This document shows, in pieces, positions 22,140 through 46,696 of a DNA stretch of 64,000 nt (positions within the stretch are counted from its first letter, which is position 1; each line of letters begins with the position of its first letter). A program made the translations under genes and the position numbers. The notes below the pieces were generated by a model that was not told the origin of the DNA, did not search any database, and saw nothing but the letters and a program-made list of their open reading frames with translations. The stretch spans positions 1,364,001 to 1,428,000 of the forward strand of contig NZ_JAHVIT010000002.1 in the NCBI RefSeq assembly GCF_019801605.1, in the 5' to 3' direction. The stretch comes from Maritimibacter alkaliphilus. Its GTDB lineage: Bacteria > Pseudomonadota > Alphaproteobacteria > Rhodobacterales > Rhodobacteraceae.

Positions 22140-23342
22140 TTATTCGGCAGGGTGAGATTGGGTGGCGCCGTCCTGCGGTTCCGTGGACTTGCGGCGGAAG
22201 AGGCGCGCGATGCGTTGCCCCCCTTCGACAAGGCCACCGGGCAGGAAGGTCACGACCAGCATGAAGAGCAGGCCCAGCGTCAGGTGCCAGCCGGGGCCGA
22301 CGAAATGCTCGACCACCCAGACCACGCCGTTCTCCATCCCGTCGGGCAGGAACGCGAACCATTGGTGCAGGACGCCTTCGTTGATCTTCGAGAAGATGTT
22401 CTCGAAGTACTTGATGAAGCCCGCGCCCAGGACCGGGCCGATCAGCGTACCCGCACCGCCGAGGATGGTCATCAGCACCACCTCGCCCGAGGCCGTCCAC
22501 TGCATCCGCTCGGCGCCTGCCAGCGGGTCCATCGAGGCCATCAGGCCCCCGGCCAGACCGGCATACATCCCCGAGATCACGAAGGCCGCAAGCGCGTAGG
22601 GCTTGGTGTTCAGGCCAGTGTAGTTCATCCGGGTGCGGTTCGACTTGATCGCCCGCAGCATCAGCCCGAAGGGCGAGCGGAAGATGCGGATCGCGAGGTA
22701 GAAGGCCAGCAGCAGCACCGCGCCGCAGAAGTAGTAGCCGGTGTTGAACTGGAACAGCCATGCGCCTGCGTCGAGCGTGAAGGTCGAGCGCATCTCCATC
22801 CCGAAGAGCGAGGTGACGGGGATGCCGCCATCCGCCGTGGCCGAGACGCCGAGGATGCGCGGATCGTCCAGCGTCAGTTGCAGGCCCGTCTCGCCGTTGG
22901 TGATCGGGGTGAGCACCGAGTAGGCGAGGTTGAAGGACATCTGCGCAAAGGCCAGCGTCAGGATCGAGAAGTAGATCCCCGTACGCCGCAGCGAGACGAA
23001 GCCGATCACCAGCGCAAAGACGCCCGAGACGAGAACCGCGAGAAGGATCGCCGGGATCACGTTCATGCTGAGCAGCTTGAACATCCACACGGCCGAGTAG
23101 GAGCCCACGCCGAGGAAGGCCGCATGGCCGAAGGACAGGTATCCGGTCAGACCGAAGAGGATGTTGAAGCCGATGGCGAAGATCCCGAAGATCACGAAGC
23201 GCTGCATCAGGTCGGGGTAGCCCGCGTTGAACTGCGCCATGGCGCTGTCGGCGGGGAAGGGGTTGAGGATGAACGGCGCCAGGAGAACCATGGCCGCCAC
23301 GATCAGCAGCAGGGTGCTGTCTTTCTTGTTGAGACCGAGCAT
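22140..23342 (-). CDS. Branched-chain-type ABC transporter permease (LivM-like)
   Basis: 400 aa inner-membrane protein with about ten hydrophobic segments. [20 protein letters not shown] is the LivM signature; [20 protein letters not shown] is the coupling loop that meets the ATPase. Two longer loops, about residues 145-190 and 320-350 (between [14 protein letters not shown] and DGMENGVVW), are larger than in LivM of E. coli and resemble the versions found next to acs in Rhodobacteraceae. It is 3 nt from the LivH-like stop. Confidence 0.9.
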
Positions 23343-23345
23343 GGC

Positions 23346-24377
23346 TTAGTCCTCCATCACGCCCTTGCGGCCCATCAGGCCACGGGGACGGGTCAGCAGA
23401 ATGACGATGGCGACGACGTAGATGATGATCTGGTCGATGCCAGGCAGCAGCGACTTGATCTGGTTCATCGAGGCGAAGCTCTCGAGCACGCCCAGCAGGA
23501 AGCCTGCCGCGACGGCGCCCGGAAGCGAGCCCATGCCGCCCACAACGACCACGACGAAGCTGAGCACGAGGAAGTCCATGCCCATGTGGTAGTTCGGCGA
23601 GTTGATCGGCGCGTACATCACCCCCGCAAGCCCGGCCACGGCGGCGGCCAGCCCGAACATGATGGTGAAGCGCTTGTCGATGTTGATGCCCAGCAAGCCC
23701 ACCGTCTCGCGGTCGGCCATGCCGGCGCGAACGACCATGCCGAAGGTGGTGAACTGCAGGAAGGCAAAGACACCGCCGATGATCACCGCCGCGAAGGCGA
23801 AGTAGACGAGGCGCCAGTAGGGGTAGATGATCACGTTGGGATCGAAGCCCAGCAGGACGCCGAAGTCGAGCGAGCCGCGGAAGGCGTCAGGCGCGGGCGT
23901 CTGGATCGGGTTCGCGCCGTAGTAGTGCTTGATCAGTTCCTGCATGACGATGGCGAGGCCGAAGGTCACGAGGATCTGGTCCGCATGGGGGCGCTTGTAG
24001 AAATGCTTGATCAGCCCGCGTTCCATGGCAAAGCCGATGCCGATCATGATCGGGATCGAGAACAGGATCGACAGTGGCACCGCCCAGTCGATCAGCGAGG
24101 CGCCCACCTCCGGGCCGAACCAGTCGACGAGGTAGGGCGTCTTCACCTTCAACGGGTTGCCGAGGAAGTCGGTCCGGGTTGGATCGACTGTCTCGAAGCT
24201 CAGCGAAAACAGCTTGTTGAGGGTAACGGCACAGAAGGCGCCGATCATGAACAACGCCCCGTGGGCAAAGTTCACGACACCCAGCGTGCCGAAGATCAGC
24301 GTCAGGCCAAGGGCGATCAGCGCATAGGCCGAGCCCTTGTCGAGGCCGTTCAGGATTTGAAGGATGATGGCGTCCAT
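23346..24377 (-). CDS. Branched-chain-type ABC transporter permease (LivH-like)
   Basis: 343 aa from the ATG at 24377, which follows GAGAGAGAC; 14 extra residues upstream are open but not family-like. LivH features: QILNGLDKGSAYALIALGLTLIFGTLGVVNFAHGALFM at the N-terminus and AGMADRETVGLLGINIDKRF as the ATPase coupling loop. A roughly 40-residue insertion after helix 2 (TVDPTRTDFLGNPLKVKTP) is longer than in E. coli LivH. Inner membrane; pairs with the LivM-like permease. Confidence 0.9.
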   Translation of the reverse strand: MDAIILQILNGLDKGSAYALIALGLTLIFGTLGVVNFAHGALFMIGAFCAVTLNKLFSLSFETVDPTRTDFLGNPLKVKTPYLVDWFGPEVGASLIDWAVPLSILFSIPIMIGIGFAMERGLIKHFYKRPHADQILVTFGLAIVMQELIKHYYGANPIQTPAPDAFRGSLDFGVLLGFDPNVIIYPYWRLVYFAFAAVIIGGVFAFLQFTTFGMVVRAGMADRETVGLLGINIDKRFTIMFGLAAAVAGLAGVMYAPINSPNYHMGMDFLVLSFVVVVVGGMGSLPGAVAAGFLLGVLESFASMNQIKSLLPGIDQIIIYVVAIVILLTRPRGLMGRKGVMED

Positions 24378-24514
24378 TGTCTCTCTCTCGGGGAAAGACG
24401 GGGGTGCGCCGTGACGCACCCGACCGCGATGTCAGTCCCGGTCAGAGCCCGCGGGCAGGACCGGAGAGGAGGGGCGCGCCGGGATGCTGGCGCGCCCCCT
24501 TGAGGCGGTGGCGA

Positions 24515-25861
24515 TCAGGCGCCGGGGTTGCACGACCCGAGCGCACCACCCGCGAACATCGGGTGATCCGGGGCGTATTCCACCTGCGCACGCGGGGTGA
24601 CCTCGACCACTTCCAGAAGGTCGAATTCCGAGGTCGGGTTCTCTTTGCCGCGCACCACGAGGACGTCCTTGAAGCACTGGTGGTCTTCGGCACGGTAGAG
24701 CGTCGGGCCGTTGCCGAGGCCGTCGAACTCGTAGCCTTCCAGCGCCTCTGCGATGGCGCAGGGGTTGAAGCTGCCCGCGCGCTGGGCGGCATCGGCATAG
24801 AGCAGCGTCTGCACGTAGCAGGTGTGCGCCGCCTGGCTCGGCGGGAAGCCGTACTTGGTGCCGAAGGACTTCACGAAGGCCTTGGTGCCCTCATCGGTCA
24901 GCGACCAGTGCCAGTTGGTGGAGCCGAGGATGCCCTTGATGTTCTCGCCCGCACCGCGTGCCATCAGGCGCGAGAAGAGCGGAACCACGATCTCGAACTG
25001 CTTGCCGTTGGCCATCTTCTCGCGCAGGCCGAACTGCACGGCGTTGGTCAGCGAGTTGACCATGTTGCCGCCGTAGTGGTTCAGCACCAGCACGTCTGCG
25101 CCCGAGTTCAGCACCGGCGCGATGTAGGACGAGAAGTCCGTCTGGGCCAGCGGGGTCTTGACGGTGTTCACCGTCTCCCAGCCAAGCGCCTCGGTCGCCG
25201 CAACGATGGATTCCTCCTGCGTCCAGCCCCAGGTGTAGTCGGCGGTCAGGTGATAGGCCTTGCGGTCGGTGCCGTATTGCGCCGCCAGCACCGGCGCCAG
25301 CGCCGCGCCCGACATGTAGGCGTTGAAGAAGTGGCGGAAGCCGTTGGCCTTCTTGTCCTTGCCGGTGGTGTCGTTGGAGTGGGTCAGCCCGGCCATGAAG
25401 ATCACGCCGGCCTCCTGGCACAGGCCCTGCACCGCGACGGCCACGCCCGAGGACGAGCCGCCGGTGATCATGATGGCGCCGTCCTTCTCGATCATCGACT
25501 TGGCCGAGGCACGTGCGGCGTCAGACTTGGTCTGCGTATCGCCGGTGACGTATTCCACCTTCTTGCCAAGGATGCCGTTGCCTTCCAGCACCTTGGAGCT
25601 GAAGGTCTGGAGCATGCCGCCGTCGCCTTCGCCGTTCAGGTGCTCGACCGCCAGCTGGTAGGCGCGCAGCTCGTCCGCGCCTTCATCCGCGTAGGGGCCG
25701 GTCTGGGGCACGTTGAAGCCCAGCGTCACGGACGCGCCCATCGGCTCGTTCATGTAGCCGGCCCAGGCCGCCCCGGTGAACAGCGTCGGGACGGCGAGCG
25801 TGGCGCCGACACCGGCCCCCGTCTTGAGCACGCCACGGCGAGTCAGGATGTTCTTCGTCAT
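24515..25861 (-). CDS. Branched-chain-type ABC transporter solute-binding protein, Tat-exported
   Basis: 448 aa from the ATG at 25861, preceded by GGGAGGAAATCA. N-terminal Tat-like signal KNILTRRGVLKTGAGVGATL cleaves near AWAG. The body is a periplasmic type-I binding fold of the LivJ/AmiC kind: SVTLGFNVPQTGPYADEGAD, MITGGSSSGVAVAVQGL, VIFMAGLTHSNDTTGKD, YHLTADYTWGWTQEESIVAA. First gene of the operon with livHMGF-like genes and acs. The usual amino-acid-binding residues cannot be assigned by eye; the link with acs and the ScfR-like regulator suggests a short-chain carboxylate or related ligand (inference). Confidence 0.88.
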   Translation of the reverse strand: MTKNILTRRGVLKTGAGVGATLAVPTLFTGAAWAGYMNEPMGASVTLGFNVPQTGPYADEGADELRAYQLAVEHLNGEGDGGMLQTFSSKVLEGNGILGKKVEYVTGDTQTKSDAARASAKSMIEKDGAIMITGGSSSGVAVAVQGLCQEAGVIFMAGLTHSNDTTGKDKKANGFRHFFNAYMSGAALAPVLAAQYGTDRKAYHLTADYTWGWTQEESIVAATEALGWETVNTVKTPLAQTDFSSYIAPVLNSGADVLVLNHYGGNMVNSLTNAVQFGLREKMANGKQFEIVVPLFSRLMARGAGENIKGILGSTNWHWSLTDEGTKAFVKSFGTKYGFPPSQAAHTCYVQTLLYADAAQRAGSFNPCAIAEALEGYEFDGLGNGPTLYRAEDHQCFKDVLVVRGKENPTSEFDLLEVVEVTPRAQVEYAPDHPMFAGGALGSCNPGA

Positions 25862-25907
25862 TGATTTCCTCCCTAAAGGTTTTGGGTGCGCCTCCTCCGC
25901 GCGCCCG

Positions 25908-25993
25908 TGCACTCTCGTGCAAAATGATTATGGCAAGGCGTAAGAAAATATCGCAACAACTGCTTTGTTTGGTTCGATTTTTTTGTAAACAAA
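25908..25993. promoter_or_regulatory. Divergent control region of the ABC-acs operon and its regulator
   Basis: AT-rich gap between the solute-binding protein and the XRE regulator. On the minus strand TTGCGA (25951-25956) and CATAAT (25927-25932) are 18 bp apart and could be the importer promoter. TTTGT-AA-ACAAA (25982-25993) is an inverted repeat and TGCAC-TCTC-GTGCA (25908-25921) a second one in the leader. One or both may be bound by the adjacent regulator; by-eye assignment. Confidence 0.45.
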
Positions 25994-26072
25994 TGAACAG
26001 TATGCTGTAGAATTCCGTAAAGGTTCTTATTCGGCAGCGCAGAAACGCGTTGAAAGGGCAGGGAAATCATCC

Positions 26073-27392
26073 ATGGCGAGAACGACGCTCACAGGCAGCC
26101 GCATCCGGGAACGCCGGATCATGCGGGGCATGCGGCAGGCTGAACTGGCCCGGCAGGCCGGGATTTCGGCCAGCTACCTCAACCTGATCGAGCACAACCG
26201 GCGCAGAATCGGCGGGAAACTGCTGCTCGACATCGCCGCCGCGCTGGAGGTGGAGCCCTCGCACCTGAGCGAAGGGGCCGAGGCCGCGCTGATCGCGACC
26301 CTGCGGGAGGCGGCCGCCGAACGTCCCGCGGCGGGCGCCGAACTGGATCGGATCGAGGAATTCGCGGGCCGTTTCCCCGGCTGGGCGCAGCTGATCGCCG
26401 GGGGCTACCGGAGGCTGGCGGCGATGGAGCAGGAGGTCGAGGCGCTGACCGACCGGCTGTCGCACGACCCGCATCTGGCTGCCTCGCTGCACGAGGTGCT
26501 CTCGACCGTCACGGCGATCCGCTCCACCGCCTCGATCCTCGTGGACACGCCCGAGCTGGAGCCCGACTGGCAGGACCGGTTTCACCGCAACATCTCCGAG
26601 GACAGCCGCCGTCTGGCCGAGGGGGCGCAGCGGCTGGTGGCGGAACTGGACGCGGGCGAGACCCGGGAGACCGCGCAGAGCGTCCCGCAGGAGGAGGTCG
26701 AGGCCTTCTTCACGGCGCAGAGTTTCCATTTCCCGGCGCTGGAGCCGGGCGGCGGCGGTGATCCCGCGCGACTGGTGGCGGAGGCCGAGGAGCTGACCAG
26801 CAGCACGGCCCGCGCCATGGCGCAGGCGCTGTTGGAACGCTACGCCGAGGATGCCCGCCATCTGCCCGCCACGCGCCTGCTGCCGGAACTGCCGAAGACC
26901 CCCGAGACGCTGAACCCCGCCGCGCTTGCCGATGCCTTCGGGACGGATACAGCCCGCGTGCTGCGACGGCTGGCGAGCCTGCCGCCGGGGGAGGGGACGC
27001 TGGACAAGGTGGGGCTGGTGATCTGCGACGGCTCCGGCACGCTGACCTTCCGCCGCCCGCTGGAGGGCTTCCCGCTGCCGCGTTTCGGCACCGCCTGCCC
27101 GCTCTGGCCGCTGTTCCAGAGCCTCAGCCGCCCGATGATGCCCATGCGCCGCCCCGTCCGTCTGGCCGGGCGCAGCGAAGGCGCCTTCCTGACCTATGCG
27201 GTGGCGCAGCCCAAGGGCGCGCCGCGCCTGAACCGTGAACCGCTCTTCGAGGCGCATATGCTGATCCTGCCCCGGGTCCCCGGCCCGAACGAGGCGGAGG
27301 AGGCGCCGCGCGTGGGCGTCACGTGCCGGATCTGTCCGCGCAGCGATTGCCCGGGCCGACGGGAGCCCTCCCTCATGGGAGACGCCGCCTGA
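26073..27392 (+). CDS. XRE-family short-chain acyl-CoA-type regulator (ScfR/RamB-like)
   Basis: 439 aa. N-terminal helix-turn-helix (RGMRQAELARQAGISASYL, NLIEHNRRRIGGKLLLDIA), a helical middle part and a C-terminal DUF2083-type region ending VTCRICPRSDCPGRREPSL, whose C-R-I-C-P-R-S-D-C cluster is the family mark. Relatives (RamB, PrpR/MccR types) control acetate, propionate and glyoxylate-cycle genes in response to acyl-CoAs. Divergent from the ABC-acs operon by 211 nt, so autoregulation plus control of that operon is likely. The stop codon lies inside a perfect hairpin. Confidence 0.88.
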   Translation: MARTTLTGSRIRERRIMRGMRQAELARQAGISASYLNLIEHNRRRIGGKLLLDIAAALEVEPSHLSEGAEAALIATLREAAAERPAAGAELDRIEEFAGRFPGWAQLIAGGYRRLAAMEQEVEALTDRLSHDPHLAASLHEVLSTVTAIRSTASILVDTPELEPDWQDRFHRNISEDSRRLAEGAQRLVAELDAGETRETAQSVPQEEVEAFFTAQSFHFPALEPGGGGDPARLVAEAEELTSSTARAMAQALLERYAEDARHLPATRLLPELPKTPETLNPAALADAFGTDTARVLRRLASLPPGEGTLDKVGLVICDGSGTLTFRRPLEGFPLPRFGTACPLWPLFQSLSRPMMPMRRPVRLAGRSEGAFLTYAVAQPKGAPRLNREPLFEAHMLILPRVPGPNEAEEAPRVGVTCRICPRSDCPGRREPSLMGDAA

Positions 27393-27438: not shown

Positions 27439-28353
27439 TCAGAAGGACGTCGGCTGGGCGGTGCCTTTGTCGAAGTCTATCCGCCAGGTGCTGCGGCTGT
27501 CGAAGCAATGCGCCCCGCCGCCGCTGCTTAGCATGAAGCTCTCGCAGCCCTCGGCATTGGCGTCGGTCAGGGCCTTGACCGCCACGTCCCAGCGGGGATC
27601 GCCCGAGGAGAGGGGCTGTAACTGGCCGTTCTGGTAGATGCTGTAGGCCTGCGAGCCCCAGCCGATTTCCGAGCTGTCGGAGGCCCAGATCAGGCGGGTG
27701 CCGCTCTGGCCGCCGGTGTGGAAGATCAGGTAGCGGCTGCGGTCCGTGCCGTCGCTGTCGCGGCTCGGCAGCATGTAGAGCATGTAGGCGCCGGTCTTTC
27801 GGTAATCCACGCCGGCCTGCGTCTCGAGGATGTTGGCCTGATGGTGGAAGGCGTGCGGCGTGTACTCCGGCACCATGGCAAGCGGAACCAGCGGGCAGCT
27901 GAACTCGGTCGCGAAGGTATCGAGCTTGGTGCCGTTGGTCTCGGAGATCGCCATGCGGAACGGGCGGTCTTGACGCACCAGTGCGCATTCCTCGGAGGAG
28001 GCGCGGGCCTGCCAGAGGCGGCTCCGGTCCAGCGGCCAGAGCATGGCGCAGCTGCCGACGGCGGTGCCGTCGATGGTGTTCATCGGATCGCAGGTATCGG
28101 TCGGCTTCTTGGGCCGGATATAGGGCTGGATCGAAGCGAGGGAGCTGGAGTCCAGCGGCACGATGGTCCCGTCGATCAGGGCCACCTGGCGGACATGTTG
28201 CATGGTGCTGAACGCCCAGTGGGCGGCAATGCCCAGGGCAAGTCCGGCGAGCAGGACAATACGCAGCGACAGTTTGCTGGCACGGGGCGCGCTTTCCTGC
28301 GCCGCCTTGGCCTGCTTATCAAACTGAGCAAGGAACTCTTTGTTCGACAGCAT
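27439..28353 (-). CDS. Unknown membrane-anchored protein
   Basis: 304 aa. Residues 1-27 are cytoplasmic and charged (FLAQFDKQAKAAQ), followed by one transmembrane segment at about 29-49 (SLRIVLLAGLALGIAAHWAF) and a 250-residue outer domain. The outer domain has at least six cysteines (DTCDPMN, GSCAMLW, EECALV, FSCPLV, EGCESF, HCFDS), which suggests disulfides in the periplasm, and a lipocalin-like alternation of short beta strands near the end. I recognise no family. Monocistronic, convergent with the ScfR-like gene. Codon use is like its neighbours, except for an AT-richer upstream region. Confidence 0.65.
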   Translation of the reverse strand: MLSNKEFLAQFDKQAKAAQESAPRASKLSLRIVLLAGLALGIAAHWAFSTMQHVRQVALIDGTIVPLDSSSLASIQPYIRPKKPTDTCDPMNTIDGTAVGSCAMLWPLDRSRLWQARASSEECALVRQDRPFRMAISETNGTKLDTFATEFSCPLVPLAMVPEYTPHAFHHQANILETQAGVDYRKTGAYMLYMLPSRDSDGTDRSRYLIFHTGGQSGTRLIWASDSSEIGWGSQAYSIYQNGQLQPLSSGDPRWDVAVKALTDANAEGCESFMLSSGGGAHCFDSRSTWRIDFDKGTAQPTSF

Positions 28354-28748
28354 TTTCTCAGGTCTCTCTTCTTATTCTATCCCGGGGGAGTGCTCGGATT
28401 TGGGGAGTGCTCTATGGGAAACATTCTATTTACGATTGAGTGAAGAGAAGGGCTGCAATCAGGCACTTTTGGGGCATGTTTCGCATCGTGGGACGGCACT
28501 TGGGCGCTTCGTGGGGCAGACGCCAGGTCAGCTGTTCGAGGGCCGACATGCCGGGGGGCCAGTCCTGCTTTCCCCAAGGGGCGCAATGACGGGCCCCTCG
28601 TGGGGGGCGTGCGCGGCAACGACGCTCGGTAAAGATTGGTAAAGAAAATGCCCTGCGCGGCGCAATCTTTGACACTCCGGGCGCGACAGGCGATAGTCGC
28701 TCGGATAATAAGAACAAGATATGACACGCTCATTAGGGGGAGGGCCGG
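28354..28748. other. Intergenic region without a supported gene
   Basis: 395 nt between the unknown protein (leftward) and the response regulator (rightward). It is less GC-rich near both ends, which fits two divergent promoters. Open frames of about 100 codons cross it on both strands, but they lack ribosome sites or any recognisable motif. I see no strong hairpin. Confidence 0.5.
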
Positions 28749-29117
28749 ATGAGCAAGAATGTTCTCGTGATCGAGGATGAGCCCAATATCATCGAGGCGA
28801 TCGGGTTCATCCTGTCGCGCGATGGCTGGCGGGTGGCGACGCATTCGAACGGGGAGGACGCCGTGGAGGCGGTGCGCAGCCGGATGCCGGATCTCGTGAT
28901 TCTTGACGTGATGCTGCCGGGGCGCTCCGGCTATGACATCCTGCGTGACCTGCGCGGGGCCGAGGCGACCGCGGGGATGCCGGTGCTGATGCTGACCGCG
29001 CGCGGCCAGAACCGCGACCGCGAGATGGCCGAGGCCGCAGGCGCCAGCCGCTTCATGACCAAGCCGTTCTCCAATTCCGAGGTGCTGGCCGCCGTGAACC
29101 AGCTGATCGGGGCCTGA
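28749..29117 (+). CDS. Single-domain response regulator (receiver only)
   Basis: 122 aa, just one REC domain with no output domain. Asp pocket IEDEPN, phospho-acceptor D53 in VILDVMLPGRSG, Thr/Ser in MLTARGQN, and Lys of MTKPFSN are all in place, so it should be phosphorylated. RBS TAGGGGGAGG precedes the ATG. It is the first gene of a block with a membrane protein, an SLC5-kinase fusion and a FliM/FliN-like protein; the kinase is its likely partner. In other bacteria SLC5-STAC kinases (CbrA, CrbS) work with DNA-binding regulators, so the missing output domain is unusual. Confidence 0.92.
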   Translation: MSKNVLVIEDEPNIIEAIGFILSRDGWRVATHSNGEDAVEAVRSRMPDLVILDVMLPGRSGYDILRDLRGAEATAGMPVLMLTARGQNRDREMAEAAGASRFMTKPFSNSEVLAAVNQLIGA

Positions 29118-29169
29118 GCCCGGTCCGCGGGCGCAGAGGAGGGGCGGGACAGCACGCGATGACGACGCC

Positions 29170-29712
29170 ATGAAAAGCCGCCAGACCGTCTTTCTCGAAC
29201 GTCAGAGCTACCGGCTGCGCCGGCGCGGGGACGCGATGCGTTTCCTGCCGGTGCTGGGGATCATCCTGATGCTGCTGCCTCTGCTCTGGACCGAGGGGCC
29301 CGAGGGCCTGCCGGTCAGCCGGGCGATGTTCTACATCTTCGGGGTCTGGGCCGGGCTGGCCGTCACCGCAGGGCTGTTGTCCCGCGGACAGGCCGGCGCC
29401 CGCAGCGCGGCATTGCCTGCGGATGGCGTTTTGGAAACCCTGCCGGGCAGCCGGCAGGCCTGGGTCATGGAGGACGATCTGGCGGGTCCCTTCGTCCCGA
29501 GCAGCATCGTCCCCATGGATGCGGACACCACTCCGGCAGAGGCCTACGGCCTGCGGGAAGGCATGTCCCCGGCCGGGGGAGGCGGGGCCGGACAAGGCGG
29601 CTCCGGACAGGGCGGCTCCGGATTGGAGGCCTCCGGACTGGACATCTCTGCCGGGGACGCATCGACCAAGGGCAGGCCGGGCACGTCCGGACCGGAGGAG
29701 GACGGGCGCTAG
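29170..29712 (+). CDS. Small membrane protein with two transmembrane segments
   Basis: 180 aa. A basic N-terminus (RQSYRLRRRGD), two hydrophobic segments (about 24-42 and 51-67) and a long soluble tail, of which residues 135-180 are a Gly/Ser/Ala low-complexity stretch (GGGGAGQGGSGQGGSG). The two-helix layout recalls the small subunit found upstream of sodium/solute symporters (DUF485/DUF4212), and here it directly precedes an SLC5-type protein whose ATG immediately follows its stop. I cannot confirm that homology by eye; it could be an uncharacterised accessory subunit. Confidence 0.75.
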   Translation: MKSRQTVFLERQSYRLRRRGDAMRFLPVLGIILMLLPLLWTEGPEGLPVSRAMFYIFGVWAGLAVTAGLLSRGQAGARSAALPADGVLETLPGSRQAWVMEDDLAGPFVPSSIVPMDADTTPAEAYGLREGMSPAGGGGAGQGGSGQGGSGLEASGLDISAGDASTKGRPGTSGPEEDGR

Positions 29713-32394
29713 ATGGCCTCGCTCAATCTCCTTCTCTCGGTCTCGCTCGCCTATGTCGCGCTGCTCTTCCTCGTGGCCTTTGCGGCGGAGCGGGCGGCGC
29801 TGCGCGGGCGCGTGGGCTGGCTGCGCTCGCCGCTGGTCTACACGCTGTCGCTCTCGATCTACTGCACTGCCTGGACCTTCTACGGCGCGGTCGGCTACGC
29901 CGCGCGCTCGGGGCTGGAGTACCTGACGATCTACCTCGGGCCCTCGCTGGCGATGATCGGCTGGCTCTGGGCCGTGCGGAAGATGGTGCGCATCGGGCGC
30001 AGCCAGAAGATCACCTCGGTCGCGGACCTGATCTCGTCCCGCTATGGCAAGTCCACGCGGCTCGCGGTCTTTGTCACCATCATGGCCGTGGTCGGCACCA
30101 CGCCCTATATCGCGCTGCAATTGCAGTCGGTCACCTTGTCCTTCGCCGCCTTCGCGGCCATGGACCCGGCTACCACGCTGCCCGGCGGCAGCAGCACGGC
30201 GCTCTGGGTGGCCGCGGGGCTGGCCTTCTTCACGGTGCTCTTCGGCACCCGCAACCTCGATGCGAACGAACGTCACCACGGCGTCGTCATGGCCATCGCG
30301 GTCGAGGCGGTGGTGAAGCTCTGCGCCCTTGTCGCCGTGGGGGTCTTCGTCATCTGGGGGCTTGGCGGCGGGCTGTCCGAAACGCTGGCCCGGATCGACG
30401 CCTCGCCCATCGGCCGGTGGGAGATGGTCAACGGTCGCTGGGCCGGTCTCATCTTCCTCTCTGCCGCCGCCTTCCTCTGCCTGCCACGCATGTTCCAGGT
30501 GCTGGTGGTCGAGAACGAGGACGAGCGCCACCTGCAGACCGCCACATGGGCCTTCCCGGCCTACCTGATGGTGATGAGCCTCTTCGTGGTGCCGATTGCC
30601 GTCATGGGCCTCGACCTGCTGCCCGAGGGATCGAACCCCGACCTCTTCGTGCTGACCCTGCCGCTGCACGACGGGCGCACGGGGCTGGCCATGCTCTCCT
30701 TCATCGGCGGCTTCTCCTCGGCGACCTCGATGGTGATCGTGGCCTCGATCGCGCTCTCGACCATGGTGTCGAACCATATCGTCATGCCGATCTGGCTGCG
30801 GGTCACCGGGGGCGGGGCCGTGGTCTCGGGCGATGTGCGCCACGTGGTCATGCTGGCGCGCCGGGTCTCGATCGTGGGCGTGGTCCTGCTGGGCTACATC
30901 TACTACCGCGTCTCGGGTGGGGGCGAGGCACTGGCCGCCATCGGCCTGATCTCCTTCTCGGGGGTGGCGCAGTTCCTGCCGGCGCTCGTGGGCGGCATCT
31001 TCTGGCGCGGGGCCACGCGCAATGGCGCGATGACGGGCCTCATCGTCGGATCGGCGATCTGGACGTGGTGCCTGTTCCTTCCGGGCTTCGGGGATGGCGT
31101 GGTGATCCCCGTCCATGTGCTCGAGGCCGGGCCCTTCGGTCTGGGCTGGCTGCGGCCCGAGGCGCTCTTCGGGATCGAGGGGATCGACCCGCTGGTGCAT
31201 GGCGCGCTCTGGTCGCTGTTCTTCAACACACTGTCCTTCGTCATCGTCTCTCTCATGGGCTTCCCGACGCCGGTGGAGCGGCTGCAGGGCGCGCAGTTCG
31301 TCAACGTCTACCAGTATTCCGAGAGCCCGGGCCGCGGTGCCGCGGGCCCGGTCCAGACCGAGGACCTGCTGATGATGTCGCAGCGCATCCTCGGCCCGGC
31401 ACAGGCGCAGGCGCTCTTCCTGCGCGAGGCGCGGGCGCAGGGCCTTGCCAGCTACCTGCCGGACCCGACGCCGGGCTTCCTTCAGGCGCTGGAGCGCGAG
31501 TTGGCAGGCTCGGTCGGGGCCGCGACGGCCCATGCGATGGTCGGCCAGCTGACCGGCGGGGCCGTCGTCTCGGTCGAGGACCTGATGGCCGTGGCGGATG
31601 AGACCGCGCAGATCATGGAATATTCCAGCCAGCTCGAAGCCAAGTCGCAGGAGCTGACCCGCACCGCGCGCCAACTGCGCGCCGCGAACGACAAGCTGAC
31701 CCAGCTGTCGCTGCAGAAGGACGCCTTCCTCAGCCAGATCAGCCACGAGCTGCGCACGCCCATGACCTCGATCCGCGCATTTTCCGAGATCCTGCGCGAC
31801 ACCGACGGGCTGGGGACCGAGCAGCGGCTGAAGTATGCCTCGATCATCCACGACGAGGCGGTGCGGCTGACGCGGCTGCTCGATGACTTGCTGGACCTTT
31901 CGGTGCTGGAAAACGGCCAGATCAGCCTGAACCTGCAGGAGGGGCGGCTTTCGGCGCTGATCGACCATGCGATTTCCGCGACCGGCGGGGCGGCGGACCG
32001 GCTGCGCATCCGCCGCAACCGCGTGGCCGAAACACTGCTGCTCACCACGGACCTCGACCGGCTGGGGCAGGTCTTCATCAACCTGATCGCCAACGCCGCG
32101 AAATACTGCGATGCGGAGCGGCCCGAACTCTCGATCCACGTGCGGCAGCGTGGCGGCACGCTGATCGTGGATTTCATCGACAACGGCACCGGGATCGAGA
32201 CTGACCAGCAGGCGGTCATCTTCGAGAAATTCGCCCGTGTGGGCGAGCAGAAGGCAGGCGGTGCGGGCCTTGGTCTCGCCATCTGCCGCGAGATCATGCA
32301 GCGGCTGGGGGGCACCATCGGCTACCTGCCGGGGCAGGGCGGGGCGGCCTTCCGGGTGACGATGCCGCTGGCCCGGGCCATGGCCGCGCAATAG
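29713..32394 (+). CDS. SLC5 transporter-like sensor histidine kinase (CbrA/CrbS type)
   Basis: 893 aa. Residues 1-530 are a sodium/solute symporter (SLC5) domain with about 13 transmembrane helices: YTLSLSIYCTAWTFYGAVG, SRYGKSTRLAVFV, LIGGF-like FIGGFSSATSMVIVASIALS. Residues about 545-620 look like the STAC linker (EDLLMMSQRILGPAQAQALF, ELAGSVGAATAHAMVGQL). Then a coiled segment, HisKA with H678 in SQISHELRTPMTS, and HATPase_c with NLIANAAKYCDAE, DNGTGIE and GAGLGLAICREI. Kinases of this build sense nutrients: CbrA histidine or carbon sources, CrbS acetate. Position near acs suggests an acetate or short-acid signal (inference). Starts directly after the small membrane protein stop. Confidence 0.9.
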   Translation: MASLNLLLSVSLAYVALLFLVAFAAERAALRGRVGWLRSPLVYTLSLSIYCTAWTFYGAVGYAARSGLEYLTIYLGPSLAMIGWLWAVRKMVRIGRSQKITSVADLISSRYGKSTRLAVFVTIMAVVGTTPYIALQLQSVTLSFAAFAAMDPATTLPGGSSTALWVAAGLAFFTVLFGTRNLDANERHHGVVMAIAVEAVVKLCALVAVGVFVIWGLGGGLSETLARIDASPIGRWEMVNGRWAGLIFLSAAAFLCLPRMFQVLVVENEDERHLQTATWAFPAYLMVMSLFVVPIAVMGLDLLPEGSNPDLFVLTLPLHDGRTGLAMLSFIGGFSSATSMVIVASIALSTMVSNHIVMPIWLRVTGGGAVVSGDVRHVVMLARRVSIVGVVLLGYIYYRVSGGGEALAAIGLISFSGVAQFLPALVGGIFWRGATRNGAMTGLIVGSAIWTWCLFLPGFGDGVVIPVHVLEAGPFGLGWLRPEALFGIEGIDPLVHGALWSLFFNTLSFVIVSLMGFPTPVERLQGAQFVNVYQYSESPGRGAAGPVQTEDLLMMSQRILGPAQAQALFLREARAQGLASYLPDPTPGFLQALERELAGSVGAATAHAMVGQLTGGAVVSVEDLMAVADETAQIMEYSSQLEAKSQELTRTARQLRAANDKLTQLSLQKDAFLSQISHELRTPMTSIRAFSEILRDTDGLGTEQRLKYASIIHDEAVRLTRLLDDLLDLSVLENGQISLNLQEGRLSALIDHAISATGGAADRLRIRRNRVAETLLLTTDLDRLGQVFINLIANAAKYCDAERPELSIHVRQRGGTLIVDFIDNGTGIETDQQAVIFEKFARVGEQKAGGAGLGLAICREIMQRLGGTIGYLPGQGGAAFRVTMPLARAMAAQ

Positions 32395-32466
32395 CCGGGT
32401 AAAGCCTATCGTAACCATCCTCGTCCTAGGTTGGCGCGAATGCCCGCGTCACATCTGGCGGAGAGA

Positions 32467-33603
32467 ATGGGAAAAACGTCATCCAACGCCGTGCTGCGCC
32501 GCAAGACCCTTGCTGCGCGCGAGGGTTATCAGGCGCGCGTCCTGTCGCCTGACAAGGCGCTGCGCCTTGCCCTCGCCCGTGCCGCGGACGAGGCGCTGGA
32601 CCTCGCCCTCGCGGTGCGCCGGCTGGAGGTGGACGAGCTGCCGCTGGAGGATGCCGTGGCCGAGCTGCCGGAGGCGGCGCTGACCCTCCTGCTGGAGGGA
32701 CCGGAGGGTCTGTCGGGCGCCATGAGCCTCGACTTCGCGCTGATGTCCTCGCTGGTGGAAATGCAGACCATGGGCCGCCTGCTGCGCTCCCCGCCCGACC
32801 CGCGCCGCCCGACCCGCACCGATGCCGCGCTGACCGCACCGCTGATCGACGCGGCCTTCACCGCGCTGGAGGGGCTGCTGGAGGCCTCCGAGGAGGGCTA
32901 TTGGCTCACCGGCTACCGCTTCGGTGCGATGATGGAGGGGCCGCGGATGCTGGGGCTGGCGCTGGACGCGGGCGGTTATCACCGGCTCAGGCTGGAGCTG
33001 GACCTCGCCGGGCAGCGTGAGGGCGGGCTGCAAATCCTCCTGCCGGAGAGGGAAAAGCCCGGCGCCGCGCCCCTGCCGGAGGAGGCCGGAGACGGCCCGC
33101 CGATGGCGCGGGTCGTGGGGCAGGCACGGGCGGAGCTGACGGCGGAACTGCACCGGCTGTCGCTGCCGTGGGAGGCACTCCTGAAGCTGAAGCCGGGCGA
33201 CGTGCTGCCGATCCCGCGCGCGGCGCTTGGCAGCACGATGCTGCTGGGTCCGGGCCGGCAGCGGGTGCTGAAGGTGCGGCTGGGGCAGATGAACGGGGCC
33301 CGGGCGGTCCGCCTCTCCGCCGAAGAGGGGGCGCGTACCGCGCGCAGGCTCTCCGAGGCGTGGGAGGCGGCAGAGCCACGGGCGGAAGCCCCGGCGATGG
33401 CGGCGGCCTCCACGTCCCCACCTGCGCCCGAGCCCGAGGTGCCGGAGCCCCCGCCAGATGTTCCGGACCCGCCGCCACGGGTCGAGGCGCTGGAGGACCT
33501 GCCGGACCTCTCGGATCTCCCGGGCCTCGGGCCGGAGGAGGAGGACCTCGAACCTTTGCCGATGTCCGGCTTCCCGATGGCGGATCTGTCGGACTTCGAG
33601 TGA
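32467..33603 (+). CDS. Orphan FliM/FliN (SpoA-domain) family protein
   Basis: 378 aa from the ATG at 32467 (GGCGGAGAG before it); an ATG at 32440 is an alternative. The middle part resembles the FliM middle domain (SLDFALMSSLVEMQTMGRL, PTRTDAALTAPLIDAAFTALEG). Residues about 215-285 are a SpoA/FliN-like C-ring domain (LHRLSLPWEALLKLKPGDVLPIP, VLKVRLGQMNGARAV). The last 70 residues are a Pro/Glu tail with DLPDLSDLPGL. No other flagellar gene is in the window. FliM binds phospho-CheY and FliN-like SpoA domains dimerise, so this protein could be a target of the receiver-only regulator upstream (inference). Confidence 0.78.
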   Translation: MGKTSSNAVLRRKTLAAREGYQARVLSPDKALRLALARAADEALDLALAVRRLEVDELPLEDAVAELPEAALTLLLEGPEGLSGAMSLDFALMSSLVEMQTMGRLLRSPPDPRRPTRTDAALTAPLIDAAFTALEGLLEASEEGYWLTGYRFGAMMEGPRMLGLALDAGGYHRLRLELDLAGQREGGLQILLPEREKPGAAPLPEEAGDGPPMARVVGQARAELTAELHRLSLPWEALLKLKPGDVLPIPRAALGSTMLLGPGRQRVLKVRLGQMNGARAVRLSAEEGARTARRLSEAWEAAEPRAEAPAMAAASTSPPAPEPEVPEPPPDVPDPPPRVEALEDLPDLSDLPGLGPEEEDLEPLPMSGFPMADLSDFE

Positions 33604-33850: not shown

Positions 33851-34270
33851 TCAGCCCTGTTCGAGCCGGGGACGCAGCTGCGACAGGTCGTAGCCGGCCT
33901 TGGCCGTCGCGGTGAGGATTTCGTCCGCGGGGACGCCCTGCGCGGCCTGACCCAGCGACCAGATCACCGAGCAGCGCGTGCCGGAGGCGCAATAGGCCAG
34001 CACGGGGCCCTCGGCCTCGGCCACCAGCGCCTCCTGCTTGGCGATGTTCTCGGGCGTCATGGTCTGGTGCGTCAGCGGCAGCACGACGAAGTCGAGACCC
34101 GCCGCCTGCGCGGCCTCGGCCATGGCGGCGGCCTGCAGCTCGGGCGGGTTCTCGGCGTCGGGACGGTTGCAGATCACGCGGGTGAAGCCTGCGGCCTTGA
34201 TCGCCGGCAGGTCCTCGGGGAGGATCTGCGGGCTCACGGAATAGCGGGGGGTGATGTGACGAGGTTCCAT
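33851..34270 (-). CDS. TIGR01244 / Blh-phosphatase-like sulfurtransferase protein
   Basis: 139 aa from the ATG at 34270. DSP/rhodanese-like fold with the loop YCASGTRCSVIWSLGQAAQG, in which the first Cys is the catalytic position of C-x5-R, here CASGTRC. N-terminal SVSPQILPEDLPAIKAAGF and ICNRPDAENPPE are typical of TIGR01244 proteins, often fused to or near persulfide dioxygenases (Blh). Last gene of the MBL-YeeE-YeeE-TIGR01244 operon; role probably in sulfane-sulfur handling. 247 nt of non-coding DNA separates it from the FliM-like gene. Confidence 0.88.
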   Translation of the reverse strand: MEPRHITPRYSVSPQILPEDLPAIKAAGFTRVICNRPDAENPPELQAAAMAEAAQAAGLDFVVLPLTHQTMTPENIAKQEALVAEAEGPVLAYCASGTRCSVIWSLGQAAQGVPADEILTATAKAGYDLSQLRPRLEQG

Positions 34271-34280
34271 GTGCAAAGCC

Positions 34281-34715
34281 TTATTCAGCAGGCACCGCCC
34301 TGTCCAGACGGCTCCGCAAGGCGGGCGTGGCGAGCATGCCTGCGCCCATGGCGATGACGAAGATCACGCCGCCGAGCCCGTTGTAGGACAGCGAGGCGAT
34401 GGCCGGCCCCGGGCAGAGCCCGACAAGGCCCCAGCCCATGCCGAAGAGCGTCGAGCCGAGGATCAGGTTGCGGCCCAGCTTGGGGGCGGGCTTCGCCGGG
34501 AAGCTGCCGCCGGCCACCGGGGCCTTCGCGCGCTCCGCGATCAGCCAGGCGATCGCCATGGGGATCATCGCGCCGCCCATGACGAAGGCCAGCGTGGGAT
34601 CCCAGGCGCCGAAGACGTCGAGCCAGCCCTGCACCTTGGCGGTGTCGGTCATGCCCGAGACATAGAGGCCGGTGCCGAACAGGCCGCCGGCGAGGAAGGC
34701 ATAGAGATTGCGCAT
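34281..34715 (-). CDS. YeeE/YedE half-size sulfur permease protein B
   Basis: 144 aa, four hydrophobic segments. AGGLFGTGLYVSGMTDTAKV and STLFGMGWGLVGLCPGPAIASL carry the family cysteine loop (GLCPGPA). It corresponds to one half of the fused YeeE protein at 578-1642. It overlaps its partner by ATGA, so the two are coupled and likely form a heteromeric channel for a reduced sulfur species such as thiosulfate, sulfite or sulfide. Family function is transport of sulfur compounds; this subgroup usually sits with Blh. Confidence 0.88.
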   Translation of the reverse strand: MRNLYAFLAGGLFGTGLYVSGMTDTAKVQGWLDVFGAWDPTLAFVMGGAMIPMAIAWLIAERAKAPVAGGSFPAKPAPKLGRNLILGSTLFGMGWGLVGLCPGPAIASLSYNGLGGVIFVIAMGAGMLATPALRSRLDRAVPAE

Positions 34716-35140
34716 CAGATCACCCCCAGGATTTCACGGAAGATCGCCACGGTGAGGCCGCCGGCGAGGATGTAGAAGACCGTGGCCACGATGCCGCGCA
34801 GCGAGAGCCGCGAGATGCCGCAGACCCCGTGACCGGAGGTGCAGCCATTGGCAAACCGCGTGCCGACGCCGACCAGCAGGCCCGCGATGGCGATGACGAG
34901 GACGTTCGACGTCAGGTGGGTGTCGACGCGCCCGAAGACCGGCGTCAGCAGCAGCGGCAGCAGGAAGACCGCGGTGAGGAAGCTGATCCGCTCCGCCGCC
35001 GTGTCCCGGCCCGAGCCGTCCACGAGACCGCCGATGATGCCCGAGGCACCCATGATCCGTCCGTTGAAGAGAAGGTAGACCGCGCCGCCCGTTCCGATCA
35101 GCAGACCGCCGGCGAGACCGAGAATCCAGTCCATTGGCAT
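34715..35140 (-). CDS. YeeE/YedE half-size sulfur permease protein A
   Basis: 141 aa, four hydrophobic segments. VGVGTRFANGCTSGHGVCGISRLSLRG holds the NGCTSGHGVCG cysteine motif that marks the entrance of the sulfur path. Starts MPMDWILGLAGGLLIGTGGA. Its stop overlaps the start of partner B. It follows the metallo-beta-lactamase gene by 78 nt in the same operon. Confidence 0.88.
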   Translation of the reverse strand: MPMDWILGLAGGLLIGTGGAVYLLFNGRIMGASGIIGGLVDGSGRDTAAERISFLTAVFLLPLLLTPVFGRVDTHLTSNVLVIAIAGLLVGVGTRFANGCTSGHGVCGISRLSLRGIVATVFYILAGGLTVAIFREILGVI

Positions 35141-35218
35141 GAGGGTATTCCGTTTGTTGGAGGAGGAGCGGGCAGGGGCCGTGCGGCCCCCGCCCAGACC
35201 GTATGGAGCGGGCCGGGA

Positions 35219-36082
35219 TCAGAGCTTGTTGACCGGCACCTTGAGGAAGACATCGCCCTTCTCGTCCGCGGGCGGCATCTGGCCTGCGCGCATGTTCACC
35301 TGCAGCGAGGGGATGATCAGCTTGGGCATGGCCAGCGTCGCGTCGCGGGCGTCGCGCATGGCAACGAAATCCTCGGCCGACTTGCCCTGGCCCACGTGGA
35401 TGTTGAGCGCCTTCTGCTCGCCCACGGTGGTTTCCCAGGCGTAGTCATCGCGGCCCGGCGCCTTGTAGTCGTGGCCCACGAAGATCCGCGTTTCGTCCGG
35501 AAGAGACAGGATTTTCTGGATCGATTCGAAGAGCGTGGCCGACGATCCGCCGGGGAAATCGCACCGGGCGGTGCCGAAATCGGGCATGAAGAGCGTATCG
35601 CCCACGAAAGCGGCGTCTCCGATCACATAGGTCAGACACGCTGGCGTATGGCCCGGTGTATGCAGAACGTCGCCGCGCAGCTGCCCGATGTGGAAGCTGT
35701 CGCCCTCGGCGAAGAGCGCGTCGAACTGCGAGCCGTCGCGCTGGAACTCGGTGCCTTCGTTGAAGACCTTGCCGAAGGTGTCCTGCACGATGCGGATGTT
35801 GTTGCCGATGCCGATCTTGCCGCCCACCTCGCGCTGGATATAGGGCGCGGCCGAGAGGTGGTCCGCATGGACGTGGCTTTCCAGAAGCCATTGAACGTCA
35901 AGGTTGTTTTCCTTGACGAAGGCGATGATCGCATCTGCCGAACGGGTGTCCGTGCGGCCGGAGGCATAGTCGAAGTCCAGAACCGAATCGATCACAGCGG
36001 CGGCGCGGCCCTCGGGCTCGCGGACGACGTAGGAAATCGTGTTCGTGGCTTCGTCGAAGAAGGCGTGAACAATGGGTTTCAT
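35219..36082 (-). CDS. MBL-fold persulfide dioxygenase-like protein (Blh/ETHE1-like)
   Basis: 287 aa from the ATG at 36082. The metallo-beta-lactamase metal motif is LLESHVHADHLSAAPY (HxHxDH), with LHTPGHTPACLTYVIGD, FVGDTLFMPDFGTARCDFPGG and IFVGHDYKAPG supplying further ligands. The PDFGTARCDFPGG loop is the signature of persulfide dioxygenases of the ETHE1/Blh group, which oxidise glutathione persulfide to sulfite with O2. Head of the sulfide-detoxification operon. No ArsR gene is adjacent, so regulation may come from SoxR at 1741 or another repressor. Confidence 0.9.
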   Translation of the reverse strand: MKPIVHAFFDEATNTISYVVREPEGRAAAVIDSVLDFDYASGRTDTRSADAIIAFVKENNLDVQWLLESHVHADHLSAAPYIQREVGGKIGIGNNIRIVQDTFGKVFNEGTEFQRDGSQFDALFAEGDSFHIGQLRGDVLHTPGHTPACLTYVIGDAAFVGDTLFMPDFGTARCDFPGGSSATLFESIQKILSLPDETRIFVGHDYKAPGRDDYAWETTVGEQKALNIHVGQGKSAEDFVAMRDARDATLAMPKLIIPSLQVNMRAGQMPPADEKGDVFLKVPVNKL

Positions 36083-36121
36083 GACGGTGTTCCTTTGCTT
36101 TGCGATAACATATAACAAACT

Positions 36122-36136
36122 TTGCATATGATGCAA
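36122..36136. promoter_or_regulatory. Palindrome in the promoter region of the MBL-YeeE operon
   Basis: TTGCAT-ATG-ATGCAA is a perfect 6-bp inverted repeat 40 nt upstream of the MBL gene start, beside an AT-rich tract ACATATAACAAAC. It is a good place for a repressor. It does not match ATTC-N8-GAAT. The rest of the 334-nt gap 36083-36416 holds no supported gene, only the start region of the 71-aa gene. Confidence 0.5.
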
Positions 36137-36416
36137 GGGCCCGTGCAAGGCCCCGTGGGCGGTTTCGTGAGTACACGGCGATTGCGACGCAGCGGCAATG
36201 CCGCGCCGCGGCTTGGCAAGTCTCTGCGCCCGTGGGCTCCTTTTGAGGCCCTGCGCCAATTTGGGCGGTTGGCAGAGGCGCCGGGCGTCCCTAGTCTAAC
36301 GTGGCCATGCAGGCCGTGCGTTCGAGGAGGGGACGCCGCCACCGCCACCACGCGGGCATGGAGGATCCCCGGCCGTGACGACGCCCGGGGGCCACTTGGT
36401 CAAGGGAGGAACTTTG

Positions 36417-45223: not shown

Positions 45224-46696
45224 CTACTCCTCCTCTGAAACCGTGGCGTGGGGCTCGATCCCGTAGCGGTCGAGCTTGGCGCGCAGGCCCACCCGGGACA
45301 GGCCCAGTTCGGCCGCCGCGCGGGATTTGTTCCACTTCATCCGGGTCAGCGTTTCGCCCAGGATGCGCATCTCGATCATCTCGACGCGGTCCTTGAGCGT
45401 GCCGTCCATCTGGCTGAAATCGGGCAGCGGCTGGCGTTCGCCCGCACGCGGGTCGCGCGATTGCAGGATGTGGCGCGAGATCAGCTCGGCCCCCAGCGTG
45501 ACCTCCTGCGCGAGGATCAGCATCCGCGTCACCTCGTTGCGCAACTCGGGCAGGTTGCCGGGCCAGTCGTAGGCTTCGAGGAAGAGCAGCGCCTCGCTGG
45601 ACAGGCCGCGCACCGGCTTGCCGTGTTCGCTTGCCGCCTCCTGCACGAAGCGTTCCGCCAGCAGCGGGATGTCGTCGGCGCGCGCCCGCAGCGGCGGGAT
45701 CGTCAGCTCGGTCACGGCAAGCGCGTAGTAGAGGTCGTTGCGGAACGCGCCCTCGGCCACCGCGCCGCGCAGGTCCACATGGCTGCCGGTGATGATCCGC
45801 GCGGAGGTCGTCAGCTGTTCGTGGCTGCCGATGGGCTGGAACGCGCCCGAGGTGGCCACCCGCAGCAGGGCCATCTGCATGTCGCGCGACAGCGTGTCGA
45901 CGCCGTTGAGGAAGATCGTGCCCCGGTCGGCCTTTTGCAGCAGGCCCGCGCGGGCCTGCGTCTGGCCGGGCAGGGCGCCGCGCCGCGCGCCAAAGAGCTC
46001 CGCCGCAAGGGCCGTATCGTCAAGGCCCGCGCAGTTGATCTCGTGGAAGGGGCGGTCCGCGCGCAGCGAGCCGTAGTGGATCGCGCGCGCCAGATCGGTC
46101 TTGCCGGTGCCCGGCTCGCCGGTGATCAGCACGGGGACGTCGAAGCTGGCGAAATGCCGGGCGAGTGCAATGGTGCCGTTCAGCGACGAGTTCGGCCCAC
46201 GCAGCACCTTGTCAAAGCCAAGCCCGGCTTGCAGCAACTCGCGCCGTTCCTGCGTGCGGGCATTGGCGGCGGTGCCGAGATAGCGCATTTCCAGCGTCAT
46301 GCGTTCGTGATCGCGGGCCAGTTCAAAGAGCGAGGCCGCGTTCTTGACCGCCATCAGCAACTGGTCGGGGTGCCACGGCTTGGTGATGAACTGGTAGATC
46401 CCTGCGTCGTTGATCGCCTGGATCATGTCGCCGGTCTCGGTGTAGCCGGTGACGATGATGCGCACGGTTTCGGGCCAGCGGTCGCGCACCTCGGTCAGCA
46501 GTTCGATCCCGGTCTTGCCCGGCATCCGCTGGTCCGAGATCACGACCTGAACCCAATGCTCTTCCATCAGGCGCCAGGCCGCATCGGCGTCATAGGCTTC
46601 GAGGACGGTGAAATCGTCCTCCAGCGCCATCCGCATGGCGGCGACGGAATGGGGCTCGTCGTCGATGACGAGGATGGTGGGCAGGGTCTCGGCCAT
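45224..46696 (-). CDS. hupR: Hydrogenase response regulator HupR (NtrC-like, altered ATPase motifs)
   Basis: 490 aa. Receiver domain with D55 in VISDQRMPG; central AAA+ domain with Walker [12 protein letters not shown] at about 193-203; C-terminal Fis helix-turn-helix [19 protein letters not shown]. Two hallmark motifs are changed: the sigma-54 loop GAFTGA reads GALPGQ (240-245), and the Walker B acids, normally LFLDEIG, read IFLNGVD. In R. capsulatus HupR activates hupS with sigma-70 and is inactive when phosphorylated by HupT; the changes fit that. Overlaps the hypB stop by TAATG. Confidence 0.95.

Follow-up and report, generated by a model that had tools for sequence, protein, structure and literature searches.

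The window analysed here, a 64,000-nucleotide stretch of the genome of Maritimibacter alkaliphilus (Rhodobacteraceae; assembly GCF_019801605.1, contig NZ_JAHVIT010000002.1, positions 1,364,001 to 1,428,000), encodes an SLC5-type transporter-histidine kinase, a stand-alone receiver (REC) and an ScfR-type transcription factor, which we consider likely to form an acetate two-component system. In this system, the receiver would address the transcription factor through a DHp-like domain derived from a kinase, and the FliM-like protein encoded beside the kinase would be the flagellum's own. A sequence-only reading had joined the receiver (28749..29117), a small membrane protein (29170..29712), the kinase (29713..32394) and the FliM-like protein (32467..33603), all on the plus strand, into one module in which the receiver acts on the FliM-like protein and no DNA-binding output exists. 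These four genes are indeed present at these coordinates, but the absence of a DNA-binding output does not hold, as the ScfR-type regulator at 26073..27392 (plus strand) is the constant partner of the kinase. Stand-alone receivers are common and their outputs are often unknown, and in this case the sequence itself points to a candidate output.

Conserved partners of the kinase

Co-occurrence was assessed in 149 genomes of the Rhodobacteraceae, searched with the first 656 residues of the kinase (threshold E 1e-20), with the receiver (E 1e-30) and with the FliM-like protein (E 1e-5), and the loci read within the family were chosen by hand from this sample. Regulator and kinase were found together in 132 genomes and were both absent from 16, with one genome holding only the kinase and none only the regulator; two weak paralogue-like regulator matches (G053, G061) had been set aside, reducing the regulator count from 134. 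The regulator lies directly 5' of the receiver, meaning on the same strand and under 1.6 kb away, in 123 of 131 genomes. In the window the two are separated by one unrelated minus-strand gene (27439..28353), encoding 304 amino acids without a Pfam match; in relatives the receiver follows the regulator at a median gap of 111 bp. For the sample from other alphaproteobacterial families, 55 genomes with regulator matches were considered and 31 were taken forward for the kinase search, excluding four that belonged to the family already sampled and another 20 in which the matches listed were confined to the C-terminal half (in G199 also residues 1-131). All 31 had a kinase match and 30 of them a DHp-type regulator; the other, G160, was retained though its ScfR protein had no DHp match, and its kinase match is a 1103-amino-acid hybrid. 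Among 20 other-family loci picked from the regulator-search matches, the kinase was on the stretch in 16, the receiver in 17 and both in 15.

The kinase carries a DHp domain at 31714-31932 with the phosphoacceptor His678 (codon 31744-31746), and Pfam detects HisKA (1.9e-18) and HATPase_c (2.1e-22). Pfam's symporter model gave no match at E 0.1, but the N-terminal 520 residues, used as a profile, matched the solved histidine kinase 10ed, which we take to be CbrA, at 8.6e-90; a CbrA-like SLC5 domain is therefore the right assignment, and the earlier description of a symporter-histidine kinase is borne out in both halves. No STAC model matched the kinase in the general Pfam scan, and this region was not compared further. 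Residues S677-P683 (SHELRTP), N790, N794, D823, G825, G827, G852 and G854 are kept in 43 of 43 kinases. HATPase_c occupies residues 780-887 of 893 and no receiver domain is listed for the kinase.

The receiver is instead a separate protein of 122 amino acids (Response_reg 3.1e-27; phosphoacceptor D53, codon 28905-28907), in which E9, D10, D53 and K105 are invariant across 45 relatives and position 83 is Thr in 41 and Ser in four. Kinase matches were found in 133 genomes and receiver matches in 131, that is, both in 131, the kinase alone in two, the receiver alone in none and neither in 16, and the receiver adjoins the kinase in 130 of the 131. The pairing of an SLC5-type kinase with a stand-alone receiver that retains its phosphorylation site, as earlier proposed, is thus supported. 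The single-domain receiver Osp was also considered and rejected, since Osp is described, in the accessible text of its source, as unphosphorylated and without acidic residues (PMC9430884), against the conserved site here. Separately, 27 of 45 loci have TGTCAAA within the 200 bp that precede the receiver gene, against 0.2 in shuffled sequences (in the window, 28549-28748 was searched); the motif is perhaps a conserved promoter element.

The regulator itself matches HTH_3 (1.7e-11) and ScfRs (1.1e-10), and both families are matched by 36 of 36 family regulators at E <= 10. Its C-terminal half matches PrpR (6cyj) by profile at 9.5e-33. Peptidase_M78 matched only two of 36 family regulators, at best at 0.016, and was above cut-off in all five DHp-type relatives tested from other families. 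Four cysteines in the ScfR C-terminal part (C342, C418, C421, C426) are present in 56 of 56 regulators and, by analogy with PrpR and RamB, are taken as putative ligands of a [4Fe-4S] cluster.

A DHp-like domain in the regulator

Between the DNA-binding and ScfR parts, residues 131-188 of the regulator (26463..26636, plus strand) align with the DHp domain of the operon kinase at 28% identity (hhalign probability 97.6, E 2.8e-12), with His140 (codon 26490-26492) in the phosphoacceptor column. At E <= 10, the kinase-DHp model matched 36 of 36 regulators against one of 36 reversed sequences, and the regulator-DHp model matched 43 of 43 kinases against none of 43 reversed. Outside the family, the curated Pfam HisKA cut-off (26.9 bits) was passed by four of five DHp-type regulators tested (31.9-38.7 bits; L157 gave no match), with HisKA sitting between the HTH and M78/ScfRs parts, and in the genome search the G227 regulator reached 42.8 bits. 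In the AlphaFold2 model of the regulator (mean pLDDT 89.0, pTM 0.66), helices 133-158 and 164-199 form a helical hairpin, with a block pLDDT of 74-95 over residues 131-190.

Origin was assessed by comparing 56 regulator DHp domains with 62 from SLC5 kinases (43 from the family alignment and 19 open reading frames of more than 850 amino acids with an H-box from other loci, counted as SLC5 kinases on length and H-box alone) and with 27 background HisKA domains (from a set of 29 drawn from five genomes, a script having removed two as SLC5 kinases). Whether mean or best scores are compared, all 56 were closer to the SLC5-kinase domains than to the background, and the same closeness by mean score was seen in only two of the 27 background domains; the regulator domain therefore probably derives from this kinase lineage. 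The phosphoacceptor column holds His in 54 of 56 regulators, including 36 of 36 within the family and 18 of 20 from other families. Among those seen, it is replaced in two genera only, by Gln in G265 and G369 and by Phe in G189, G315 and G412, and in all of these genomes the regulator lies apart from the receiver-kinase pair, on another contig or several kb away.

These data also bear on two other explanations of the domain. It might be a mere dimerisation module captured from a kinase, with the target of the receiver and kinase lying elsewhere and the regulator answering acyl-CoA alone. We regard this as unlikely. In its favour, a plain ScfR protein, L201 (HTH_3, M78, ScfRs), does without a HisKA match, the acid after the His is not retained outside the family and the His is lost in the two genera above; against it, the His is kept in 54 of 56 regulators, and the regulator is accompanied by the kinase almost without exception within the sampled family and in all 30 other-family genomes with a DHp-type regulator. 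Slightly more credible, though still improbable, is a decoy or phosphatase that lowers the phosphorylated receiver or competes with the kinase, so that DNA binding follows receiver binding and not phosphorylation of the His. H-[E/D]-x-x-[S/T/N], which resembles the phosphatase motif of HisKA kinases, occurs in 29 of the 36 regulators of the family, and the domain appears to belong to the kinase's own lineage, as this explanation would have it; the same motif, however, is found in only two of 20 regulators outside the family. We keep to the reading in which the receiver addresses the transcription factor, and weigh it further in the Discussion.

Operator and link to acs

A paired-box putative operator, TGTAAA-N26-CGTAAA, lies 5' of the regulator gene (25984..26021, plus strand). 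The 32-bp spacing of such TGTAAA-type boxes is conserved before the regulator gene in 29 of 39 loci, and when one mismatch is allowed the window holds no second match, with 0.01 expected. An exact paired-site search of the 149 genomes returned 111 sites in 88 genomes, of which 70 lie just before a regulator gene by script (71 with G054) and 17 lie 73-162 bp before acs, the acetyl-CoA synthetase gene, all oriented opposite to acs; these distances use acs starts estimated from alignment. The remaining 23 sites do not exceed in number the 33 matches given by a backward control pattern. Of the 41 sites that the script did not count, 12 were picked partly by eye and fetched first, the other 29 then followed, and all are counted. 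Checked against the acetate-CoA ligase model, whose cut-off is 657 bits, two of the proteins encoded by these acs genes scored 1031.7 and 1031.6 bits, and the other assignments rest on 67-88% identity to the first of them. Additionally, the receiver-kinase pair is directly preceded by an acs gene (68-69% identity) in G189, G315, G358 and G412. Together, the operator placement and these neighbours make acs a candidate target of the system.

The FliM-like gene

The FliM-like gene (32467..33603) has an open reading frame from TTG 32431, with ATG 32467 favoured as start by alignment. Pfam finds only FliMN_C in its product, yet the AlphaFold2 model (mean pLDDT 81.6) has FliM structures as its best Foldseek matches (8umd_C at 1.6e-13; FliM middle domains 4gc8 and 2hp7), so that the FliM middle domain and SpoA domain named by the sequence-only reading are both present in the predicted structure, with Pfam detecting the SpoA part only. 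Against the curated FliM model TIGR01397 the protein scores 26 bits, far from the cut-off of 219.6. That cut-off, however, is exceeded by any match in only 10 of the 149 genomes, and the model therefore misses most FliM proteins of the family.

The FliM-like protein was matched in 118 genomes and FliG (PF01706) in 133, and the two largely go together: 117 genomes have both, one only the FliM-like protein (G028, a genome of 86% completeness), 16 only FliG and 15 neither. The corresponding figures with the kinase are 112 genomes with both, six with the FliM-like protein only, 21 with the kinase only and 10 with neither. Within the 133 kinase-bearing genomes, FliM-like protein and FliG are both present in 111 and both absent in 10, with one holding only the former and 11 only the latter; the FliM-like gene is thus absent from 10 of the 11 kinase-bearing genomes without FliG, and in these 10 the receiver and kinase are adjacent in every case and the regulator is on the fetched stretch in nine. 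Conversely, six flagellated genomes have the FliM-like gene and no kinase match (G061, G066, G068, G077, G085, G118). In G061, the FliM-like gene was seen to adjoin an acs gene (L070, 4762-7993).

The neighbourhood itself is conserved beyond what chance would give. In 102 of the 112 genomes that hold both, the FliM-like gene follows the kinase on the same strand, at 0.7-1.15 kb from the end of the kinase match. The two genes are unlinked in the other ten: in G074 they are 50 kb apart, and in nine genomes they are on different contigs, although in G114 and G133 a piece of the kinase does adjoin the FliM-like gene at a contig end. The gene order is thus conserved, while the FliM-like gene itself follows FliG and not the kinase, with six genomes that have it without a kinase match and 21 that have the kinase without it. 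No FliM-like gene was found in the 20 loci from other alphaproteobacterial families.

Among the 16 genomes with FliG and no FliM-like match, 14 contain a long match to the FliM model, which is above cut-off in G030, G045 and G090 and below it in the other 11 (in G101 at only 37 bits); the two exceptions are G053, whose weak match probably represents FliN, and G093, which lacks any match. One and the same gene is picked out by the FliM-like search and by the FliM model in both G074 and G008. A profile of 28 FliM-like proteins scored 66.7-120.9 bits against nine of ten FliM proteins from these two genomes and eight of the 16, and 55.7 against the tenth, compared with 35.6-57.4 bits against eight FliM of a presumed second flagellar type and 23.9-37.8 against six of a presumed gamma-like type. 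The alignment of this profile with other Rhodobacteraceae FliM starts close to the N-terminus and extends across the SpoA domain. The source genome has two FliG matches (contigs C11 and C7; L116, L117) and a 323-amino-acid FliM match on the 64-kb contig C11, and therefore probably has two flagellar systems.

Some published data can be set beside these results. According to a 2020 review, the fliM and fliG genes that belong to the native set of R. sphaeroides are found at another place in chromosome I (PMC7277832, in its accessible text). In the accessible text of a 2025 survey, the word fliM occurs in the references only (PMC12363192), and its Table 1, a transposon screen of P. inhibens, lists no gene named fliM among the motility hits, nor a regulator, receiver or SLC5-type kinase under such names. 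That screen required two independent mutants outside the flagellar cluster (PMC12363192). The result speaks against an essential FliM role in that species, or the gene was missed or not counted; our one contig scan for an orthologue found 12 loci, none from R. sphaeroides or P. inhibens.

Because its presence follows FliG, its profile matches Rhodobacteraceae FliM and fliM lies elsewhere in R. sphaeroides, the FliM-like protein is most likely the native flagellum's own FliM, diverged in sequence and encoded at a distance from the main cluster. This possibility had been raised at the outset as one that would undo the proposed module, and it largely applies; the other such possibility, that the genes are not conserved as neighbours, does not. 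That the protein is the dedicated target of the receiver is not supported, its presence tracking FliG and not the kinase. It is accordingly improbable that the kinase phosphorylates the receiver and the receiver docks on this protein, tuning the motor or another target by nutrient state. FliM, FliY and CheC proteins bind or act on CheY-type receivers, and the related fold and the position directly behind the kinase in 102 of 112 genomes would suit such a chain; against it stand the six FliM-like genomes with neither kinase nor receiver match at the thresholds used, the 21 genomes that keep the kinase without the gene, its absence from the 20 other-family loci and a conserved box, possibly part of a separate promoter, which precedes the gene in 12 of 34 loci. 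Where a genome holds both, the receiver may still make a secondary contact with FliM.

That box, CGTAACC in the window (32410..32416, plus strand), lies between the kinase and fliM, possibly in fliM's own promoter: of 34 loci, 12 have GTAACC in the 150 bp that precede the FliM-like gene, against 0.80 in shuffled sequences, and it occurs before none of 47 kinase, 45 receiver and 39 regulator genes. Two further candidates were rejected. A CtrA-like box (TTAA-N7-TTAA) precedes fliM in three of 34 loci when one mismatch is allowed and in 23 when two are, compared with 0.55 and 5.1 in shuffled sequences; because it also precedes the regulator (5 of 39 and 21 of 39), it was judged unspecific. A role of the FliM-like protein as a CheC/FliY-type receiver phosphatase was likewise set aside, the fold similarity being common to FliM in general.

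Other features of the locus

The small membrane protein between receiver and kinase is conserved in its N-terminal part only, and tblastn detects it there, in the interval separating the two genes, at 31-58% identity; it was found in 31 loci, the window included, against 47 loci with the kinase. It has two hydrophobic helices, as judged by eye only, and no family above cut-off in the Pfam scan. On the minus strand at 33851-36259 lie genes for a TIGR01244 sulfur transferase/BLH phosphatase, a DUF6691 protein, another small protein and a metallo-beta-lactamase, which look like a sulfide or persulfide handling cluster; relatives of the TIGR01244 and DUF6691 genes adjoin the operon in many loci. 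Further minus-strand genes encode ABC permeases of the urea/branched-chain amino acid type with a periplasmic binding protein (22140-25912) and a sigma-54 type activator that resembles AtoC/NtrX models and scores below their cut-offs (45224-46864).

Discussion

In the mechanism that we propose, the SLC5-type transporter-kinase would sense acetate or another short-chain carboxylate and phosphorylate the stand-alone receiver, as family knowledge and the conserved active sites suggest. The receiver would then dock on the DHp-like domain of the regulator much as on the kinase, and either pass its phosphoryl group to His140 or bind in a phosphorylation-dependent manner. The regulator would combine this external signal with an internal one, sensed through acyl-CoA and probably an Fe-S cluster bound by the ScfR part, as in PrpR and RamB, and would bind the paired TGTAAA boxes before its own gene and acs, sites that are marked out by conservation. 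In its most specific form, this amounts to a reversed output, in which the factor has captured the phosphoacceptor and docking domain of its own partner kinase, with the receiver carrying the phosphoryl group from the kinase His to the transcription-factor His and the factor adding its acyl-CoA/Fe-S signal to set acs, which we regard as quite possible, if short of probable. The FliM-like gene, as flagellar FliM, would have been placed beside the operon in an ancestor of most of the family and would be dispensable for signalling.

Several observations weigh against this reading. The 149 genomes share ancestry, so that exact-test p values overstate their independence, and in G023 the kinase is matched without regulator or receiver. 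The His is kept in G358 and G149 even though the regulator lies apart from the kinase, and of 20 regulators from other families 18 lack the acid after it, so that kinase-like chemistry need not be kept. Searched per sequence, HisKA matched only eight of 36 family regulators at E <= 10, at best at 6.5e-4 and with the window protein unlisted; a PDB profile search with the regulator DHp domain gave only three matches (E 0.29-0.96, one a histidine kinase at 0.47), and Foldseek with the whole regulator model returned PrpR and HTH domains, with no kinase among the best 50 rows. The exact operator precedes acs in only 17 cases, and the single exact site of the source genome is not near acs (L248), its acs promoter not having been examined.

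If true, the arrangement would represent a new way of wiring a two-component system, would offer a clear natural example in which to study docking specificity, and would provide a candidate acetate sensor circuit for most sampled genomes of the family and for several other alphaproteobacterial families. In the open-licence literature, judged by title or abstract opening and with most subscription papers outside this scope, we found no paper describing such wiring. The analysis also indicates the probable FliM of the commonest Rhodobacterales flagellum, which is unlisted in the main text, as accessible, of the 2025 inventory (PMC12363192). Further, it cautions that a conserved neighbourhood alone is a poor guide to function.

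With the FliM of the native Rhodobacterales flagellum, which is named fla1-type in PMC12363192 and fla2 in R. sphaeroides, the FliM-like protein shares the middle and SpoA fold, the presence with FliG and, as in R. sphaeroides, a gene outside the main cluster, whereas it falls far under the cut-off of the curated FliM model. The regulator shares with the ScfR family (RamB, MccR/PrpR, PccR) the HTH_3 and ScfRs domains, the four conserved cysteines and two nearly identical DNA boxes, but has HisKA inserted between the HTH and M78/ScfR parts and is tied to a two-component pair. Its orthologue in Paracoccus denitrificans is presumably Pden_1785. RamB of this species binds a pair of nearly identical boxes that an 18-bp spacer separates, and one sentence of the same source has Pden_1785 and Pden_2985 clustering "respectively" with a two-component system and with another gene (PMC10370305, in its accessible text), so that an ScfR-like gene beside a two-component pair had already been noticed.

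Among the kinases, CrbS of the CrbS/CrbR system is likewise SLC5-fused and has acs as a target (PMC9100948, PMC5715377, in their accessible text), and the partner of CbrA, whose N-terminal part is shared through the match to 10ed, is the response regulator CbrB (PMC9100948), in contrast to the single-domain receiver here. CrbS/CrbR combines a hybrid kinase that has a C-terminal receiver with a LuxR-type regulator, whereas here the kinase has no receiver domain, the receiver is separate and DNA binding falls to an ScfR factor, which has a DHp-like domain in place of a receiver domain. In the Spo0F/Spo0B and ChpT relays a receiver, stand-alone in the case of Spo0F, meets a non-kinase protein of the DHp fold; in the system described here, the DHp-like domain is fused directly to the DNA-binding factor.

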